Source of the DNA: Methylophaga sp.
GTDB taxonomy: Bacteria > Pseudomonadota > Gammaproteobacteria > Nitrosococcales > Methylophagaceae
Assembly: GCA_026988435.1 (NCBI GenBank)
Contig: JALSLH010000088.1
Coordinates: 1 to 64,000, forward strand
Length of the DNA stretch: 64,000 nt
Direction: 5' to 3'
The position numbers were made by a program, and so were the translations under genes. Every line of letters starts with the position of its first letter. The stretch's first letter is position 1. Of this stretch, positions 2,996 through 56,639 are shown one piece after another. The notes below the pieces were generated by a model, which worked only from the letters and a program-made list of their open reading frames with translations, searched no databases and was not told where the DNA came from.

Positions 2996-3012
2996 TTTTT
3001 TTGGAATTTAGT

Positions 3013-3095
3013 TAAAAAGCCAAACCTGTTGTGAAGCAGGGTCGGAAAGTTTCAGGTCTTAAAGTTTTTATATTGAGATGGCTGGGCTGCATTAC
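3013..3095 (+). ncRNA. Probable GEMM-I (c-di-GMP-class) riboswitch, diverged
   Basis: The leader of the PEP-CTERM gene can be folded by hand into the GEMM-I layout. AAACC precedes stem P2: CCTGTT (3025-3030) pairs with AGCAGG (3035-3040) across a GUGA (GNRA) tetraloop. GGGTCGGAAAG follows, in place of the usual GGGACGCAAAG. Stem P3 pairs CAG and GTCTTAA (3053-3062) with TTGAGAT and CTG (3073-3084). The closing GGCTGGGCTGC resembles the family's 3' conserved block. The core departs from consensus (CGGAAAGTTT instead of CGCAAAGCC), so ligand type and function are uncertain. Its place just upstream of an exopolysaccharide-linked secreted protein fits c-di-GMP control of matrix genes. Confidence 0.6.
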
Positions 3096-3137
3096 TTGAT
3101 TTTTTATTTTTTTATATTCGAAATAAGGAATAGTATT

Positions 3138-3764
3138 ATGAAAAAAGTAATGCTTTTATTAGTAAGTGCAGTATTTTCTGTGTCAGCAAGTGCGGCAAGT
3201 TTTGATTTTGCTAATTATGCAGATACCGAAGGTGAAGCTGGTTATGCCTCTTATGTGAAAACAGAAGGTGTAATCACGGTAACAGCAACGGGAACTGCAA
3301 ATGTTAGCACTACGCCAACATCAGCGTTTGCATATCTTGATGCTGGTGGTGCTGGTCTAGGTGTTTGTAAAAACATTGGATCAACTGCTCAATGTGAGCC
3401 TTCTAGTGACGATAATGCTTTGCGAGATGAAGCTATTAAATTATCATTTGACCAAGCGGTATGGGTGACAGATGTTGATTTTGTTAATGGTAGCCATGGT
3501 ACTAGTTTCACTGGTACATATGAATTAATCGTTGATGGTATTTCTCAAGGTACTCAAGCCTTAGCAAGTTTAGCTACGCTAAATATCTTTGGTACAGTAT
3601 TTGAGTTCATTAATAATTCAGTGGGCAATAAAGATTTAGCAAGCAATCAGTTCTACATCAATGTATTAGATGCTCAAGTTCCAGTTCCAGCAGCATTGTT
3701 CTTATTTGCACCAGCTCTATTAGGTTTCTTTGGTTTACGTCGTAAAGCTACATTAGCGGCATAA
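3138..3764 (+). CDS. Secreted protein with VPVPAA-type PEP-CTERM sorting signal
   Basis: This is a 208-residue exported protein, the only evident exosortase substrate in the window. The start at 3138 was chosen because AAGGA lies 8 bases upstream and the product begins with a clean signal peptide (MKKVMLLLVSAVFSVSASA); the longer frame from 3078 lacks both. The body is Ala/Thr/Gly-rich with two close cysteines (GVCKNIGSTAQC). The C-terminus has VPVPAA, a hydrophobic helix (LFLFAPALLGFFG) and an LRRK stop, the tripartite signal cut by exosortase. XrtA is encoded at 31412-32938. A strong terminator follows, so it is its own transcription unit. The matrix role is inferred from the family. Confidence 0.88.
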   Translation: MKKVMLLLVSAVFSVSASAASFDFANYADTEGEAGYASYVKTEGVITVTATGTANVSTTPTSAFAYLDAGGAGLGVCKNIGSTAQCEPSSDDNALRDEAIKLSFDQAVWVTDVDFVNGSHGTSFTGTYELIVDGISQGTQALASLATLNIFGTVFEFINNSVGNKDLASNQFYINVLDAQVPVPAALFLFAPALLGFFGLRRKATLAA

Positions 3765-35430: not shown

Positions 35431-35445
35431 ACCTACAATACAATA

Positions 35446-35608
35446 TATACCCGTGACCAATGAACTTGCAGATTTCTAGTGCGCATCCTGATTGCGCTAG
35501 CGGTGTTATATTCTTGAGCAATAGAGCGACTATTACATCAATAATATGCCTTGCTATCACAACCATTATGCGCACTATAAACATGCATGTTCAATGATAA
35601 CGGGTATA
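35446..35608. mobile_element. 163-bp MITE-like element, copy 1
   Basis: It begins TATACCCGTGACCAATGAAC and ends with the imperfect inverse TTCAATGATAACGGGTATA. The terminal arms pair over about 40 bases (TAGTGCGCA with TGCGCACTA inside). Copy 2 at 43958-44120 has the same length and differs at two bases by eye. There is no coding capacity. The near-identity of the copies suggests recent mobility. Confidence 0.85.
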
Positions 35609-43923: not shown

Positions 43924-43957
43924 GTTAGGCGGGCTACAGATTGAATGGTCACGGGTA

Positions 43958-44120
43958 TATACCCGTGACCAATGAACTTGCAGATTTCTAGTCCCCATCC
44001 TGATTGCGCTAGCGGTGTTATATTCTTGAGCAATAGAGCGACTATTACATCAATAATATGCCTTGCTATCACAACCATTATGCGCACTATAAACATGCAT
44101 GTTCAATGATAACGGGTATA
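43958..44120. mobile_element. 163-bp MITE-like element, copy 2
   Basis: It is the same length as the element at 35446-35608 with two base changes (TAGTCCCCA against TAGTGCGCA), which break the inner pairing of its arms. Its left end abuts another element end (CAGATTGAATGGTCACGGGTATA at 43938-43960), so two elements are nested or fused here. With the tRNA fragment it fills most of the 537-base gap 43756-44292. Confidence 0.85.
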
Positions 44121-49956: not shown

Positions 49957-50697
49957 CTAGTGAGTATATAAATTTAGCGTAATCGTGACTCTTCGGTCAT
50001 AAAATAATTCTTCTCCCCATGAACCATTATTCATATTGTTGCTTTCACCATAATTTGTCGTCAAGAATTGCATCTTATTAGCACCTTTCATAACTAAATA
50101 CTTTTCAACAGAATCAAGTCTGGTTTTAGCTAATTTGTAATTATTATCATTGCTACCGCGCCAATCACTATGCGCTTCTATATTCGCTTTAATATTAGGA
50201 TTAGATTTTAATAGCTCAGCTAACAGTAATAAACCTTGCTGTGCGTGCGAATGAACAATATCACTATTACTTAGAAAGTACACATCAAGCTGATAGCTAT
50301 TTATAATCTGTTTAGTATTGTCATTATGGTTTTGTTGTGACAGATCAAAATCAGTCTGTAATTGCTGCTTACTGGACTCTAACCGGGATATTTTAGATTG
50401 TGATTGTGATAACTCAGTGCTAATTATGTCAAGATCCTTTTCTAAGGCTGTAATAAAATGTTGTTGCTCTGTTATAGTTTCAGTCTGAGTTTGCTGGTGG
50501 CCTGTTAAAACGCCTAGAGAACCTCCAATAATGGCGCCAAACGGACCGGCAATAAGTGAACCCGCAACTAAGCCAACACCGCCAACAGTGGCTTCATGAT
50601 GTGAGCTGTCAGCGGATTCAGGCTGGTAAACTGGGGTTGCGATAATTGCAGGGCTAGCGATGAGTAGTAAGCTGCATAATAGTGTTTTTGTGTGCAT
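49957..50697 (-). CDS. pdsO: OmpA-family protein, PdsO-like
   Basis: This 246-residue exported protein has a signal peptide ending near IIATP or the following VYQP. A glycine-rich segment (GGVGLVAGSLIAGPFGAIIGG) that can insert in or cross a membrane follows, then a short coiled coil (about 80-120). The C-terminal OmpA-like peptidoglycan-binding domain (VYFLSNSDIVHSHAQQGL, IEAHSDWRGSNDNNYKLA) follows. Divergent from a response regulator and histidine kinase, it matches the PdsO member of the proteobacterial dedicated sortase system. No sortase is visible in this window. Confidence 0.78.
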   Translation of the reverse strand: MHTKTLLCSLLLIASPAIIATPVYQPESADSSHHEATVGGVGLVAGSLIAGPFGAIIGGSLGVLTGHQQTQTETITEQQHFITALEKDLDIISTELSQSQSKISRLESSKQQLQTDFDLSQQNHNDNTKQIINSYQLDVYFLSNSDIVHSHAQQGLLLLAELLKSNPNIKANIEAHSDWRGSNDNNYKLAKTRLDSVEKYLVMKGANKMQFLTTNYGESNNMNNGSWGEELFYDRRVTITLNLYTH

Positions 50698-50894
50698 AAT
50701 TAAGATCCTTTGTATTGTTATTGGTTCAGCGGGTCATCCATGACACTTGGAACTGTGCAAATAGAGGAAAATGTTGAACTCCATTTCTGCGCCGAGTGGT
50801 GACTATTTAACCGCAGTGAAATGGCAACAACAGGTCATGAACTTGGCGATGTGGCGATAAAATAAGGCAGAAATATGGCAAAGGGGAGAAAATA

Positions 50895-51590
50895 ATGGGG
50901 CGTAGGATCGCAATTGTAGAAGATGAACCGGATATTAGAGATAACTATGCTGAAGCGCTAAGACGGCAAGGCTATGAGGTATCAACGTATGCTAATAGAA
51001 AGTCAGCCTATGAGGCTTTTCAAGAGCGCTTGCCCGAATTAGCCATTATTGATATCGGTTTGAATGATGAACCTGAAGGTGGTTTTGATTTATGTCGCGA
51101 TCTAAGAGCCATGTCTGAAACATTACCGATTATTTTTCTTACTGCGCGAGATAATGAGCTAGATACCGTCTCGGGGTTTCGCCTTGGCGCGGATGATTAT
51201 TTGACTAAGGATATCGGCTTATCACATTTACAAGCACGTATTGCGGCCTTATTTCGTCGCTTAGAATTAATGAAAACGCCCGCTGTAGCAGAAGATTTGA
51301 TTAGCCAAGGTGATTTAGTATTAGATGCAGATAGGATGACAGTGAGTTTTAACGGTAAGCCTGTAGCGTTAACCGTGACAGAATTTTGGTTGGTGCATGC
51401 CTTAGTGCGATTTGTAGGGCATGTTAAAACACGGGAGCAATTAATGCAGGCGGCTAATATTTACGTTGATGAGGACACTATTAGCTCACATATAAAACGG
51501 ATCCGTAAGAAATTTCAAACCGTTGATACTGAGTTCTCCGCAATTGAAACGGTATATGGTTTGGGGTATCGTTGGATTGAGCAAGCTTAA
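50895..51590 (+). CDS. pdsR: OmpR-family response regulator, PdsR-like
   Basis: This is a 231-residue regulator. The receiver domain has VEDEPDIRDNYAEAL, Asp in IIDIGLNDEPEGGFDL, and the conserved Lys in YLTKDIGLSHL. The winged-helix output domain covers about residues 135-230 (LTVTEFWLVHALV, DTISSHIKRIRKKF, ETVYGLGYRW). It is divergent from pdsO across a 197-base gap and followed by the kinase gene after a 292-base gap filled by a MITE. Confidence 0.87.
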   Translation: MGRRIAIVEDEPDIRDNYAEALRRQGYEVSTYANRKSAYEAFQERLPELAIIDIGLNDEPEGGFDLCRDLRAMSETLPIIFLTARDNELDTVSGFRLGADDYLTKDIGLSHLQARIAALFRRLELMKTPAVAEDLISQGDLVLDADRMTVSFNGKPVALTVTEFWLVHALVRFVGHVKTREQLMQAANIYVDEDTISSHIKRIRKKFQTVDTEFSAIETVYGLGYRWIEQA

Positions 51591-51602
51591 TCAGAGCCTC
51601 CT

Positions 51603-51872
51603 TATATACCCAAAATACTTGAAGATGCAGGTTTCAGCAAGAGAAGAAGCCATTATATTCTAGGCATAAAACGCAGGAATTAGTCGTTCTAATTCTAAGT
51701 TTTATAACGACGAAGATAATGGTTTATCCTCTTGCCCTGCGGGAGCTTAGCACGAATGCCAGCACTGCGTTACAATGCTCGACAAGGACTAGTCATTGCC
51801 TTCACATTGCGCCTTGTTCTGACCTTCGTGCTAAGCTCTGAAATCTGCATCTTCAAGTAATTTGGGTATATA
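51603..51872. mobile_element. 270-bp MITE-like element between pdsR and pdsS
   Basis: Termini TATATACCCAAAATACTTGA and TCAAGTAATTTGGGTATATA are imperfect inverse copies of about 34 bases, extended by GATGCAG. It fills the pdsR-pdsS gap almost exactly: 12 bases after the pdsR stop and 10 before the pdsS start. Its left 144 bases recur inverted at 48667-48810. Both its modules recur in diverged form at 36438-36701. Confidence 0.85.
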
Positions 51873-51882
51873 ACAACTATTA

Positions 51883-53997
51883 ATGCGTATTTGGCCAACA
51901 ATAAAATTAAAATTAAGAAGTAAGCTATTACTGGTTTCATTGGTGTTATTACTTTTACCTTGGCTGGGAGTACGTTATATTCAAGCGATGGAAGACTTGT
52001 TGCAACAGCAGCAAGCACAGTCGATGGCGACTATTGCCAAAGCCAGTGCCATATTAATGGCACAATATTCTGATCCTTTAATTGAGAGATCTGAACTTTT
52101 AGATCATAAAACACGAACACAAAAAATTGCAGTATCAACACTTTCTACTCCCATTGAGATTGATGGTTACAAAAGTGAATGGAAAGCCCTTCATGGCTTA
52201 ATGACGACACTTCCTGCCACCAACCAACTATCTTATGGGCACAAAATTGATCCTCAAGATGTGACGGCACGATATCTATGGGCAAAACAGCAACGGTCGT
52301 TAATGATGCTATTAGATGTGGCTGATGATTCGATTGTATTTCGAAATCCACATAGTTCAAATAGGCATGGTGGCGATGCTATTGTATTGGCGGTTGTGGA
52401 CCATAAACAGCGCGTTCGTCGCTATTTATTAACAGCAAGTGCACCAGGGCAGATTAACGCCTTTGAATATATTGGAAGTTATCTCGACCCCGTGGTTATT
52501 GGGCGACAAAGTGGTATTCAGGCAGCATGGCAGCTATCACCTTATGGCTATCGCTTAGAGCTTGCCTTGCCTGAAGCAATGATTGATTCATCCATAGCGA
52601 TAGCGGTTATTGATGTAGATAAAAATGAAGCAGAACCTCAAGTCATTGGAATAGGTGATGTACGAGATAGTGCACTTTTTGCTGATTTACTTTTACCTTC
52701 TACACAGTTAGCAGAAGCACTGTCAGAGATGGCTACAGAGGGTACCAGAATTTGGTTAATTGATAATGAACGCAATACACTCGCTAGCGCAGGCCAAGGT
52801 GAAGTTTTGGTCGCCGAGCAACCGTTCAATTCACTGACAGATTTTTTTTATAATCTTTTTTTAGAAACGGCTGTGTCAGATGATGAGTCATTACGGCATG
52901 AACAAGCTGTTTTTAGAGGCAATGCGGTGCAAGCAGCACTCAAAGGTATAGCAGAAACAGAGCGTCGGAAGGTAAAAGATAGTAAGCAAACGGTAATTGT
53001 GGCAGCCCAGCCTATTTTGATAGACGGGATAACGGTTGCTACTATCGTAGCAGAAAAAAATACTAATACTATTATGGGGCTACAGAATAAAGCGGTCAAA
53101 ACCTTAGTCAATACTAGCTTATGGGTGATGGCGTTAGCACTGATTGTCCTAATCGGTTTTGCTAGCCGTCTTTCTTTTAGAATTAGGCGATTAAACCGTG
53201 ATGTTTCTGCTGTAGTGAGTGGTGAGGGTCGCGTGTCAGGCGTATTGGCACAACGTGAAGAATATGACGAATTAGGTGAATTACGCCAAGGATTTGAACA
53301 ACTTTTTGAGCGTTTAGGTTTATATACGCATTACCTAGAAGCCCTATCATCGCGGTTGACACATGAGCTGCGCACGCCTGTAGCAGTGATTAGAACGTCA
53401 TTAGAGCATTTGGAGCAATCTCCTGAGGATAGCCAAATTTATATTGATCGCGCTCGTTCAGGCAGTGAGCGGCTTAATAATATTATTGCTCGAATGAGTG
53501 AGGCAAGCCGATTAGAACAAACCGTTAATAATGTCGTTTTAGAAAAATTTGATTTGACAGCTTTACTGCAAAATATCACACCGGTATACCAAGATCTTCA
53601 TCCGCAGGTCACATTTGAGTTAACTATAGTAGAAGAAGGTATTATGGTAAATGGCTGCCAAGAATTAATTGTGCAAATGCTGGATAAATTGATTGCCAAT
53701 GCGGTCGATTTTCATTTGCCTAAAACAGCAATAGTGATAAGCCTTGAAAAAAGTAGCAGGTCAGCGGCAGGAGTGCTCACAATAAGGAATTCAGGCCCAC
53801 ATTTGCCTGAAGGTATGGAGCAGCAATTATTTCAGCCGATGGTTTCTATTCGTGAGGCTGTTACGCAATCACCTGTACCTCATTTGGGCTTGGGTTTATA
53901 TATTGTCAAACTGATCGCTGAATTACATGGTGGACAGATCACCGCCCATAATTGGCAACAAGGGGTAGAGTTTAGGCTTAAGCTGCCGATAACATAA
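51883..53997 (+). CDS. pdsS: Membrane histidine kinase, PdsS-like
   Basis: This is a 704-residue sensor kinase. An N-terminal membrane helix (LLLVSLVLLLLPWLGVRYI) is followed by a large periplasmic part (about 35-400). That part includes a carbohydrate-binding-like beta domain (IEIDGYKSEWKALHG, LMMLLDVADDS, WQLSPYGYRLELALP). A second membrane helix lies near 410-430. HAMP, the H box SRLTHELRTPVAVIRTSLEHL, the N box LDKLIANAVDFH and the G2 HLGLGLYIVKLI follow. The long periplasmic region is the hallmark of the dedicated sortase-system kinase. It pairs with the upstream regulator. Confidence 0.87.
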   Translation: MRIWPTIKLKLRSKLLLVSLVLLLLPWLGVRYIQAMEDLLQQQQAQSMATIAKASAILMAQYSDPLIERSELLDHKTRTQKIAVSTLSTPIEIDGYKSEWKALHGLMTTLPATNQLSYGHKIDPQDVTARYLWAKQQRSLMMLLDVADDSIVFRNPHSSNRHGGDAIVLAVVDHKQRVRRYLLTASAPGQINAFEYIGSYLDPVVIGRQSGIQAAWQLSPYGYRLELALPEAMIDSSIAIAVIDVDKNEAEPQVIGIGDVRDSALFADLLLPSTQLAEALSEMATEGTRIWLIDNERNTLASAGQGEVLVAEQPFNSLTDFFYNLFLETAVSDDESLRHEQAVFRGNAVQAALKGIAETERRKVKDSKQTVIVAAQPILIDGITVATIVAEKNTNTIMGLQNKAVKTLVNTSLWVMALALIVLIGFASRLSFRIRRLNRDVSAVVSGEGRVSGVLAQREEYDELGELRQGFEQLFERLGLYTHYLEALSSRLTHELRTPVAVIRTSLEHLEQSPEDSQIYIDRARSGSERLNNIIARMSEASRLEQTVNNVVLEKFDLTALLQNITPVYQDLHPQVTFELTIVEEGIMVNGCQELIVQMLDKLIANAVDFHLPKTAIVISLEKSSRSAAGVLTIRNSGPHLPEGMEQQLFQPMVSIREAVTQSPVPHLGLGLYIVKLIAELHGGQITAHNWQQGVEFRLKLPIT

Positions 53998-54099: not shown

Positions 54100-54513
54100 A
54101 TGAAATCTTTACGAGCTATAGTAGTAGTTAGTTTAATGCTATTTTTATCAGCAGTAGAAGCCGATGTTCCGATGCCGCCGATACCTATTGAGCCTATTTA
54201 TTTTGAACCGCCGATAGTAGAAGCATCACAACAAGACAAACAGTTAAATTGCATTGATTTGGATAATACAATTCGTTATTTGCATCCTTATCGTTATACC
54301 TACAAAGATAAGTTCTATGAAGACGATACTAATACCATCGCTGTCACACTGATTACAGCAGATTCAGTCCCGATTGTAGGTGGATTGCTAGGCTTAGGAT
54401 ATTTGACCTATTCATCACTGGTTGAAGAAAAAGAAAGTCGGCGCATGTTAAATGTGGAGCAACAAATCAGCATGTTGCAGCAGTTAAAATCAGAATTACA
54501 CTGTTTTGAATAA
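54100..54513 (+). CDS. Small exported protein of unknown function
   Basis: This 137-residue protein is not recognised. I start at 54100, where MKSLRAIVVVSLMLFLSAVEA forms a signal peptide and GGAG lies upstream. The mature part opens with a proline-rich stretch (DVPMPPIPIEPIYFEPP), then has two cysteines (LNCIDLD and LHCFE), a hydrophobic segment VPIVGGLLGLGYLTYSSL, and a charged helical end. It lies about 100 bases after pdsS and 127 bases before the repeat-protein gene, same strand. A periplasmic or membrane-attached location is likely. Confidence 0.7.
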   Translation: MKSLRAIVVVSLMLFLSAVEADVPMPPIPIEPIYFEPPIVEASQQDKQLNCIDLDNTIRYLHPYRYTYKDKFYEDDTNTIAVTLITADSVPIVGGLLGLGYLTYSSLVEEKESRRMLNVEQQISMLQQLKSELHCFE

Positions 54514-54640
54514 ACGTGAACAAGTAAATTATAAAAAAACGTGATTGAGATGTGGCTCGCAATAAGCCGTTTTATTGCTTGTAGTTACCTCGAGATATCA
54601 TGTACTATCAAGGTAATGAATTAGCAGAGAGGTAGCTACA

Positions 54641-55366
54641 ATGACAACTACAATCGATATAAAAAAAAAATGGTACGAAGCTAACTTAAAGGCAGCACGT
54701 GAAAGCCGAAAAAAATGGTATAAAGCGAATGAAAAGGTGGCGACAACATTGCCTCAAAAACATTGGTATGAAATCAATGAAACGCGCAAAGCTGATACAG
54801 GAAAGCCATGGTATGAAGCTAATCTGGCTGGTCATTTAGATGCTAAGAAAAAATGGTATGAAGCGAACCTAAAAGCTGCGGTAGATTCAATTCGAGAAGA
54901 ACGTACAAAATGGTATGAGGCTAACGAGCAACAAACAGAAAAAACAGGCCAACCATGGTATGAAGCTAATACACAATTTGATCCTCATATGGAAATAAAG
55001 AGAAAGTGGTACCGTTCTAATCTTGAAATGGCGCATGCAAAGCAAGAAAAATGGTATGAGGCGAATCAGCAACCGACAAATCAGACAGGTCAACCATGGT
55101 ATGAAGCAAATATACACGCTGATCCACATATGGATCAGAAGAAAAAATGGTATAAAGCAAATCTTGAACTTGCTAGAACCAATATGGACAATAAAAAATG
55201 GTATGAAGCAAATACACATGTAGATCAGTATGCTGATGCCAAACAAAAATGGTTTATGGCAAATCTTGCACTGACACGTAAAAAAACTGAAAAGCAGAAA
55301 TGGTATGAAGCTAACCTTGAAGCTACGCGTCAAGGCCAGAAAAAATGGTATGACAGCAATAAATAA
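54641..55366 (+). CDS. KWYEAN-repeat protein, unknown function
   Basis: This 241-residue protein is built almost wholly of one motif, consensus [KP]-W-Y-E-A-N. Tryptophans stand at residues 11, 26, 42, 57, 72, 91, 106, 123, 138, 153, 170, 187, 204, 221 and 236. All 15 are followed by an aromatic residue (14 Tyr, 1 Phe) and by Asn four places on. Spacing is 15-19 residues. A higher-order unit of about 47-49 residues is marked by TG[KQ]PWYEAN at 53, 102 and 149 and by DPHM at 114 and 161. Linkers are Lys/Glu/Gln-rich; there is no signal peptide, membrane segment or cysteine. AGAGAGG precedes the ATG. Synonymous codons differ between copies (AAC/AAT, GCT/GCG/GCA), so the repeat is old and kept at protein level. 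The next gene's ATG directly abuts its stop. I know no family for it. Confidence 0.85.
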   Translation: MTTTIDIKKKWYEANLKAARESRKKWYKANEKVATTLPQKHWYEINETRKADTGKPWYEANLAGHLDAKKKWYEANLKAAVDSIREERTKWYEANEQQTEKTGQPWYEANTQFDPHMEIKRKWYRSNLEMAHAKQEKWYEANQQPTNQTGQPWYEANIHADPHMDQKKKWYKANLELARTNMDNKKWYEANTHVDQYADAKQKWFMANLALTRKKTEKQKWYEANLEATRQGQKKWYDSNK

Positions 55367-56005
55367 ATGATTGAAGTTAAATGCCTCACCGTTGGGGCAT
55401 TTCAGGTGAACACCTATTTAATTAAAGATGCGGCAACGGGAGCCTGCGCGGTTATTGATACAGGGGAAAGTGATGATTTAGTTGAGCGCCTGCAAGCGTT
55501 ACAGCCAAGCCCCGATGTTCAAATGATTTTGCTAACACATGCACATCTTGATCATGCAGGCGCTTTAGTCGCTTTGCAGAAAGTGTTCGATGTGCCTACA
55601 TATCTACCTAGATTAGAAATACCTTTATTTGAAACATTACCGGAGCAGGGGACATGGTTTGGTGCGCCTCATATGAATCGTCCTTGTGGTCGAATTGATC
55701 ATCTTGTTGATGATGGCGATGTAATTCAGTTAGGTGAAACAACATTGCAGTTTATTTCAGCGCCAGGCCATACTCCCGGTCAGGGTTGCTATTACGATGA
55801 ATCGAATATCTTTGTCGGTGATACAATATTTGCAGGAAGTGTCGGCAGAACGGATCTACCAATGGGGGATCCTATCCTCGCACAAAAAAGTTTAGCAAAG
55901 CTAATGAAGTTATCTGGTAAGCTACAGGTTCACAGTGGCCATGGAGCGGTTACTACGCTGGCGCAAGAACTGACCAGTAATCCTTTTTTACAATTCTTGA
56001 GATAA
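55367..56005 (+). CDS. Metallo-beta-lactamase-fold hydrolase (glyoxalase II/YcbL-like)
   Basis: This 212-residue cytoplasmic hydrolase has the zinc motif THAHLDHAG (HxHxDH) near residue 58, APGHTPGQG, VGDTIFAGSVGRTDLP and a final HSGHG. Members hydrolyse thioesters such as S-lactoylglutathione or related substrates. It starts immediately after the repeat-protein stop codon and is followed by carbonic anhydrase after one base, so the three genes form a tight unit. Confidence 0.9.
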   Translation: MIEVKCLTVGAFQVNTYLIKDAATGACAVIDTGESDDLVERLQALQPSPDVQMILLTHAHLDHAGALVALQKVFDVPTYLPRLEIPLFETLPEQGTWFGAPHMNRPCGRIDHLVDDGDVIQLGETTLQFISAPGHTPGQGCYYDESNIFVGDTIFAGSVGRTDLPMGDPILAQKSLAKLMKLSGKLQVHSGHGAVTTLAQELTSNPFLQFLR

Positions 56006-56006
56006 A

Positions 56007-56639
56007 ATGGCAAAAACACAAAAGTTAATTGATGGGTTCAAACGTTTTCAAGCACAATATTTTGGAGATGATAGACGCCTTTATGACAGTATGATTTCGG
56101 GGCAACCAGCAAAGACTATGATGATAGCGTGTTGTGATTCACGTGTTGACCCTGCCATTGTGACCGATTGCGATCCTGGTGACTTGTTTATTGTGCGCAA
56201 TGTGGCAAATTTGGTGCCACCCTGTGAAAATGATGGACATCACCATGGTACAAGTGCCGCCTTAGAATTTGCGGCTAATAGCCTAGAAGTAGAAAATATT
56301 ATTATTATGGGCCACGCAAACTGTGGTGGTATTAATGCTTTATGGCATGATGATGGGGATGAAATGCAATCTCAGTTTTTACATCATTGGATGTCAATTG
56401 CTAAGCCATCAAAAGACTGGGTAATTAATAAGTTATCAAGTTCATCACAGGAAGATAAAATCAAAGCATGTGAACAGCGTGCAATTTTAGAGTCATTAGC
56501 GAACTTAATGACATTTAACTGTATTCGCGAGAAAGTAGAGCAGGGTACGCTTAGCTTACATGGTTGGTACTTTGATATCCCTACAGGTCAGCTACTTTAT
56601 TTTAATTCACAAACAGGTGCGTTTGAACCCGTAAATTAG
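56007..56639 (+). CDS. can: Beta-class carbonic anhydrase
   Basis: This 210-residue enzyme interconverts CO2 and bicarbonate. Zinc ligands and catalytic dyad are visible: CCDSRVDP (Cys, Asp, Arg) and GHANCGGI (His, Cys). [12 protein letters not shown] and GTSAALEFA are typical. It is the third gene of the repeat-protein unit and overlaps bamE by four bases at the convergent ends. Confidence 0.95.

Follow-up and report, generated by a model that had tools for sequence, protein, structure and literature searches.

The window analysed here, a 64,000-nucleotide stretch of a Methylophaga sp. contig, contains a gene whose product carries 15 W-[YF]-x-x-N motifs and which we term the WYEAN array gene (Table 1). 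A preliminary description of this DNA had reported 15 Trp residues, each followed by an aromatic residue and by Asn at +4, at spacings of 15 to 19 over 241 residues, and a recount and shuffled sequences confirm this pattern. The W-[YF] pairs begin at residues 11, 26, 42, 57, 72, 91, 106, 123, 138, 153, 170, 187, 204, 221 and 236, with successive spacings of 15, 16, 15, 15, 19, 15, 17, 15, 15, 17, 17, 17, 17 and 15, and Asn is present at +4 in 15 of 15 motifs. By chance, W[YF]xxN occurs 0.07 times on average and at most 3 times (10,000 shuffles of equal composition), versus the 15 seen. Over the whole window, 16 motifs are found in the array's frame (15 inside the open reading frame (ORF)), versus 6 in the other five frames together. 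The super-repeat of 47 to 49 residues that had been proposed is also borne out, as the period found by TRF equals 47 codons.

The protein is basic and hydrophilic (pI 9.4, GRAVY -1.49), and its 241 residues include no Cys, as had been claimed. Inspection of the N-terminus by eye agrees with the earlier statement that an export signal is absent, and this lack of a signal peptide suggests that the array protein is cytosolic. LEA proteins generally avoid Trp. A role as a LEA-like protectant was set aside because Trp makes up 6% of the protein.

Table 1. Features at the WYEAN array locus, in window coordinates
Feature	Position	Strand	Basis
Exported small two-cysteine protein, 137 aa, constant upstream neighbour	54100..54513	+	Conserved start 54100; ORF list 54055
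Conserved promoter-like element: TTGTAG (54579-54584), 18-nt spacer, TACTAT (54603-54608)	54579..54608	+	Aligned upstream regions
Likely ribosome-binding site GAGAGG	54627..54632	+	Read from sequence; aligned GAGG-like stretch
WYEAN repeat protein, 15 W-[YF]-x-x-N units	54641..55366	+	241-aa ORF, ATG to TAA
Super-repeat, 141-nt period (47 codons), 1.9 copies, 76% match	54907..55168	+	TRF
Metallo-beta-lactamase (MBL)-fold hydrolase, downstream neighbour	55367..56005	+	ATG directly after array stop codon
Beta-carbonic anhydrase, downstream neighbour, non-obligate companion	56007..56639	+	Model match

Upstream regions aligned across the family share the pattern TTGT-spacer-TAnTATC. The TAnTATC part is exact in 49 of 52 regions and lies 33 or 34 nt before the ATG in 25 of these 49; when the -35 part is picked automatically, the spacer is 18 nt in 25 of 49 and 15 nt in 18 of 49, and near-identical species inflate both the -10 and the spacer counts. 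Because the automatic choice is split between 18- and 15-nt spacers, the -35 assignment is less certain than the -10. The element was absent from the output of a generic promoter scan, which found sites no more numerous than in shuffled sequence. The pattern was rejected as the mark of a regulon, since it has 3 exact matches in the genome versus 2 for a reversed control; of the two matches elsewhere, one appears by eye to lie inside a gene.

The window holds several other features. At 3009-3764 (+ strand), a c-di-GMP-I riboswitch (Rfam, 57.5 bits) is located just ahead of an exported protein whose end resembles, by eye, a PEP-CTERM sorting signal, in an exopolysaccharide-type gene cluster. A 165-bp repeat occurs twice (35444-35608 and 43956-44120), with 98.8% identity between the copies and partial self-complementarity, and may represent a small transposon-like element. 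Near the second copy are ORFs that resemble a putative RelB/RelE pair.

Distribution and chromosomal position of the array

The Methylophaga-group family consists of methylotrophs. Among 95 genomes near that of the window, homologues of the array are present in 53 of 57 from the window's own family (Methylophaga and relatives) and in 0 of 38 others; in the genome collections each species is represented by a single genome. With a profile built from 13 relatives, matches were obtained in 53 of 63 genomes of the order and 4 of 369 genomes of the class, all of them in this family. A peptide scan of 84,980 species (one genome each), which reaches close relatives only, yielded 20 relatives from 24 matched stretches, labelled Methylophaga, Piscirickettsiaceae (one with the scaffold name Methylophagaceae) or unclassified Gammaproteobacteria. 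The WYEAN array gene is a real, conserved gene, and in the genomes sampled here it is confined to a single bacterial family.

Four family genomes lack a match. In two of them (G051 and G023) the assembly breaks at the position expected for the array, the contig starting inside the carbonic anhydrase or bamE gene. A third (G031) retains bamE-fur-recN and has different genes where the array is expected, and the fourth (G029) is a 1.1-Mb genome that lacks a RecN match as well.

The array is conserved family-wide at one chromosomal place. The widely kept gene order is coq7, pilZ, a set of variable genes, the small exported protein, the array, the MBL hydrolase, carbonic anhydrase, bamE, fur and recN. 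The hydrolase or the carbonic anhydrase was not found beside the array in several loci, and neither was found in G013 (L008). In the window, the variable genes are pdsO, a dedicated-sortase response regulator and a kinase (49957-53997); the regulator scores above the model cut-off, and the kinase and the PdsO-like protein score just below it. The sortase match of this genome is on another contig (G000:C53). These dedicated-sortase two-component genes were rejected as part of an array system because they are found in only part of the relatives.

The most constant neighbour is the exported protein, present in 51 of 57 family genomes and not found in two that bear the array (G019 and G055). Outside the family, 13 of 365 class genomes contain weak relatives of it (E 0.01), and no array of at least four motifs was found near them (ORFs of at least 60 aa, 10 of the 13 loci). 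Because these relatives occur without the array, the exported protein was rejected as a dedicated array partner, and the link between the two is probably one of shared position only. The exported family (L236-L245 and the window copy) has two invariant cysteines, some members that are lipoprotein-like by eye, and relatives in other Gammaproteobacteria. It shows no consistent Pfam match. The structure model of the exported protein reaches a pLDDT of 77.5 with no fold match in the PDB (best E 3.4), and the hydropathy of its possible membrane segment reaches 1.6 in 9 of 34 cases.

Repeat units, selection and predicted structure

Composition statistics cover 50 of 55 array loci, from 53 genomes. 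Five loci were left out: one with a run of N (L066), two without a start (L070 and L072) and two contig-end pieces of less than 190 aa (L069 and L075). Two that run off a contig end (L042 and L071) and one whose gene is in two separate open pieces (L064) were counted as is, by the larger or visible piece. The 50 proteins are 202-427 aa long, with 11-24 motifs and a net charge of +4 to +32. Variation in repeat number, a point raised in the preliminary description, is therefore seen between species. All 50 lack Cys, and all 50 are basic (pI 8.8-9.8); two full-length members (412 and 410 aa) have net charges of only +6 and +8.

Neighbouring motifs are 15 residues apart in 370 of 902 pairs, with 17 (216 pairs), 14 (107) and 19 (59) also common, and spacings of 10 and 13 occur. 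Recurring unit types are KKWYEANLxxARxSR (15 residues), HLDTKKKWYEANLxxAVxSVRxxR (19), PWYEANxxxDPHADxK (17) and KWYEANLDNTPTEKHWYEFSDE. The first unit is [KR]-W-Y-E-A-N-L in 31 of 52 N-termini counted by eye; the others begin with WF, KWYESN or a divergent first unit. Glu is present in 74% of 15-residue motifs, and the residue after the motif Asn is most often L, I or M.

In 15 longer relatives (alignment A2), a module of 154-156 residues is present twice. The two halves are 56-95% identical within a protein, which implies that some species recently homogenised or re-copied the module. The window protein is shorter, and its sequence suggests a form with a single module. Pfam matches of the 15 longer relatives are scattered, with 1-3 members each, and phrog_37791 (unknown function) matches 9 of the 15 (best E 2e-4).

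Comparison of the window gene with four relatives gave dN/dS values for the motif of 0.009, 0.024 and 0.04 (three usable pairs, the fourth being saturated), versus 0.15-0.34 for the spacers (four pairs); these values are rough, since dS ranges over 0.56-3.6 when the whole gene or the spacers are compared. In addition, the codon strings of the 15 window motifs differ from one another at synonymous positions. Selection on the peptide, as first proposed from synonymous codon drift, is upheld: purifying selection is stronger on the motif than on the spacers, and the spacers are also conserved.

This conservation bears on the proposal that the gene encodes a multi-core peptide precursor, with the W-Y motif as the site of cleavage or modification. 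Repeated, near-identical short cores are what such a precursor would contain. However, the spacers are conserved along with the motifs, Cys is absent from 50 of 50 proteins, there is no leader-plus-core layout, the gene keeps one chromosomal position, and no modifying enzyme, peptidase or other maturation neighbour was recognised among the ten window proteins scanned. We consider a precursor scarcely credible.

The unit types suggest short helices parted by Asn, Asp-Pro or Thr-Pro breaks. An AlphaFold2 model of the window protein, built from 13 aligned sequences, has a mean pLDDT of 48, a pTM of 0.20 and zero residues at or above 70; most residues are helical, in patchy helices. We read this as an array protein that probably lacks a stable fold on its own, bearing in mind that shallow repeat alignments are hard for AlphaFold2. 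The helical content would suit a folded alpha-helical solenoid with a W-Y face, which was among the original suggestions. The low confidence of the model leaves that fold unsupported, although for a repeat protein with a shallow alignment this is weak evidence either way. A unit length that is mostly 14-19 residues and the presence of Pro before W in 22% of 15-residue and 30% of 17-residue units also speak against a solenoid, which we regard as very improbable. Another of the original suggestions, a sticker-spacer protein with regularly placed aromatics, is a possible reading.

Similar arrays in phage nucleases

The window protein has no match among Pfam and NCBIfam models or PDB sequences. 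No catalytic domain was recognised in it by these searches, and specifically no nuclease domain of the HNH, endonuclease VII or GIY-YIG type fused to the array. Plasmids and annotated phages, searched with the same protein, likewise gave no match (tblastn in annotated phages, E 0.01). Its sole PHROG match is weak (E 0.071), to the HNH-endonuclease profile phrog_7091 at positions 56-95. Arrays of phages match this same profile at 57-97 (L251), 53-103 (L257) and 58-99 (L129).

A scan of viral contigs for codon sets encoding W-[YF]-x-x-N, three of them at set distances, gave at least 120 loci. Among the loci listed, in-frame inspection left 42 segments in 38 loci, of which two look by eye like protein-like arrays (L129 and L160), the rest being low-complexity or off-frame reads. 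Pfam recognises an HNH domain in L160 (E 6.6e-9), and L129 has an endonuclease VII match (E 3.8e-6). A stricter scan for two WYEAN-type codon sets gave 12 loci, all 12 with in-frame arrays, such as KAWYEANKEKRKASKKAWYEANKE or KAWYEANKEK...KAWYEANKEK with a period of 15. Because five of these loci look near-identical (L247, L248, L249, L255 and L256), about eight of the 12 are independent. Nine viral array proteins were scanned for domains, namely eight from the stricter scan and L246. Seven of the nine match the endonuclease VII profile phrog_1035, and L246 has a GIY-YIG match (Pfam E 1.2e-8). The matches of L254 are limited to those parts of profiles that are themselves array sequence.

Annotated phages also yielded matches to the L129 array, 5 of 10 of which were examined. 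One is annotated as endonuclease VII (L211). In three, sequence next to the array looks HNH-like or zinc-ribbon-like by eye, and Pfam supports this weakly or not at all (L209, L210 and L212; HNH E 0.027 for L210), and one, from Chlorobiaceae phage CV-1-33 (L208), has neither. These five arrays use YY, WR and similar pairs in place of WYEAN. Phage HNH, endonuclease VII and GIY-YIG nucleases share an accessory 15-residue W/Y-x-x-x-N array (L208-L212, L246-L258). No Pfam model lies over the array part above cut-off in the 14 array proteins scanned. The preliminary description had stated that no described family shows this pattern; this holds for Pfam and NCBIfam models, but the motif is carried at a 15-residue period by phage nuclease proteins. 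Among the open-licence PMC papers listed by literature searches, none was seen from title and abstract to concern the Methylophaga protein or the phage array.

Like the Methylophaga protein, the phage arrays are basic repeats of [WY]-[YR]-x-x-N with 15 as the commonest period, and some carry WYEAN itself, an agreement that is partly built in because the stricter scan asked for WYEAN. They differ in several respects. The phage arrays are mostly fused to nucleases (L208 and L254 lack a recognised catalytic domain), whereas the Methylophaga protein stands alone. The phage period is nearly fixed at 15, whereas Methylophaga spacings are mostly 14-19 and do not keep to a constant 15. After the Asn, a K-E-K or P-E-K stretch follows in phage arrays, in place of the L, I or M commonest in Methylophaga. 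Finally, net charge per residue is +0.10 to +0.21 in six phage arrays versus a mean of +0.05 in Methylophaga.

Common descent was assessed by scoring phage arrays with family profiles against decoys. With the A1 profile, L129 scores 43.0 bits as a whole and 40.7 over its repeat stretch, and decoys of it in which nothing but the W, second-residue and N letters is preserved score 41.4 +/- 5.5. With the A2 profile, the corresponding decoys score 33.9 +/- 5.7, versus 36.4 for the repeat stretch and 31.7 for the whole. When five motif residues are kept, ten of eleven arrays give z values of -0.35 to 2.7 with A1 (positive in 9 of 10) and -0.36 to 1.95 with A2 (positive in 8 of 10). L208 alone stands out, with z values of 7.7 (A1) and 8.0 (A2), which may reflect a motif without Tyr, in which the flanking K and E would carry more weight. 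For the spacer columns, the in-register correlation is 0.316, a value reached by 11% of permutations. Although 77 viral stretches match family peptides, the only confirmed relative among them is L246. A phage array query of 369 class genomes (E <= 1e-6) recovered only array-family proteins, in 2 of the 4 family genomes of the sample. The motif and period shared with phage arrays are clear. The decoy tests indicate that motif and spacing account for most of the resemblance, and descent of the Methylophaga array from phage arrays is possible.

Candidate functions and known repeat systems

The constraint on the motif, its many copies, the lack of a recognised catalytic domain and the low-confidence model together point to multivalent binding, and the nuclease context of comparable arrays makes nucleic acid the likeliest partner. 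Our leading explanation, which we hold only tentatively, is that the Methylophaga protein is a nuclease-free array of short conditional helices that makes multiple contacts with an extended partner, of which nucleic acid is the most likely. The stand-alone array would comprise 11-24 short units, each consisting of K/P-W-Y-E-A-N and a spacer of about 9-14 residues. Judging from the low-confidence model, the chain is probably mostly unfolded alone and may be able to form short helices. Each unit would serve as one weak binding site, and the array would bind an extended or multi-site partner along its length. In phage endonucleases of two unrelated folds (HNH/endonuclease VII and GIY-YIG), the most plausible role of the accessory array is to tether the enzyme to nucleic acid, although such binding by the phage arrays is itself presumed. 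By analogy, the Methylophaga protein may be a small protein that coats or bridges DNA or RNA and has no nuclease, and any binding function assigned to it is likewise presumptive.

It is also conceivable, but in our estimate unlikely, that the bacterial family took over a phage nucleic-acid-holding array, lost the nuclease, and lengthened and diversified the units, such that the array now functions as a core cellular DNA- or RNA-organising protein. If so, it would represent a novel type of nucleoid or RNP protein composed of W-Y-E-A-N units only, and would give a hint at the role of the phage array.

The lower charge density relative to phage arrays, together with the frequent Glu in 15-residue motifs, argues against simple binding to a nucleic-acid backbone and keeps a protein scaffold close. 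In this main rival, which is possible although somewhat doubtful, W-Y units would act as stickers for a folded oligomeric client that the array clusters or condenses. A hydrophilic, basic, Cys-free protein with a W-centred motif repeated 11-24 times, looser spacers, a low-confidence model and a copy number that shifts through whole-module duplication is consistent with such a scaffold, as is the likeness to PYCO1 described below. The gene also often precedes the hydrolase and carbonic anhydrase genes. However, unit order and spacing are strongly conserved (the modules of 154-156 residues in 15 species), beyond what a free sticker-spacer chain needs, and the obvious clients, RuBisCO and carbonic anhydrase, fail by phyletic mismatch.

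PYCO1, EPYC1 and CsoS2 are scaffolds of the RuBisCO-linker type, and PYCO1 and EPYC1 cluster or condense RuBisCO. In composition, as a basic repeat protein with short aromatic motifs, the array matches such linkers, and the predicted disorder that it would share with them comes from the low-confidence model. RuBisCO large-subunit matches are found in the window's genome (G000:C71) and 28 further family genomes. RuBisCO was rejected as an obligate client because it is present in 29 of 57 family genomes and 26 of the 53 array-bearing genomes gave no match to it. Carbonic anhydrase was rejected in the same role, as it was not found in 7 of 53 array genomes, including G013 (99% complete) and G018 (93%). 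Both enzymes are present in two genomes that lack the array (G029 and G031).

The grouping of short units into longer super-repeats (47 residues in the window protein, and the core of 154-156 residues in 15 longer relatives) would also suit a filament-binding ruler, a nebulin-like string whose short units would each touch a single subunit of a polymer, cytoskeletal or otherwise. Spacing that varies within one protein is awkward for a strict match of one unit per subunit, and no filament protein was found among the kept neighbours scanned. We consider a ruler improbable.

The gene is conserved throughout a family yet has no name, model or function, and its single tryptophan motif is under strong selection. 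Because the array resembles a phage accessory array over which no Pfam model lay in these scans, one binding experiment would inform both. In addition, proteins with 11-24 units provide a compact natural series for relating valency to binding or condensation.

Two known repeat systems offer comparisons by description. PYCO1, a diatom RuBisCO linker, has a pI of 10.03, is predicted to be mostly disordered and requires the Trp of a repeated KWSP motif (PMC10288592). As described there, it shares with the Methylophaga array tandem repeats, a short Trp-centred sticker, basic character and low predicted order, and differs in having six repeats of about 80 residues and RuBisCO as its client. Nebulin has SDXXYK simple repeats in modules of 35-40 residues, seven-module super-repeats and actin as its client (PMC7109182). 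Like the array, it groups short motif repeats into a super-repeat, and it differs in module length and client; the likeness is one of analogy. Short-motif array proteins are thus already known, and the nearest in sequence pattern appear to be the accessory arrays of phage nucleases. As far as these searches go, the nuclease-free, family-wide core version of the W-Y array found in Methylophaga and its relatives is new.
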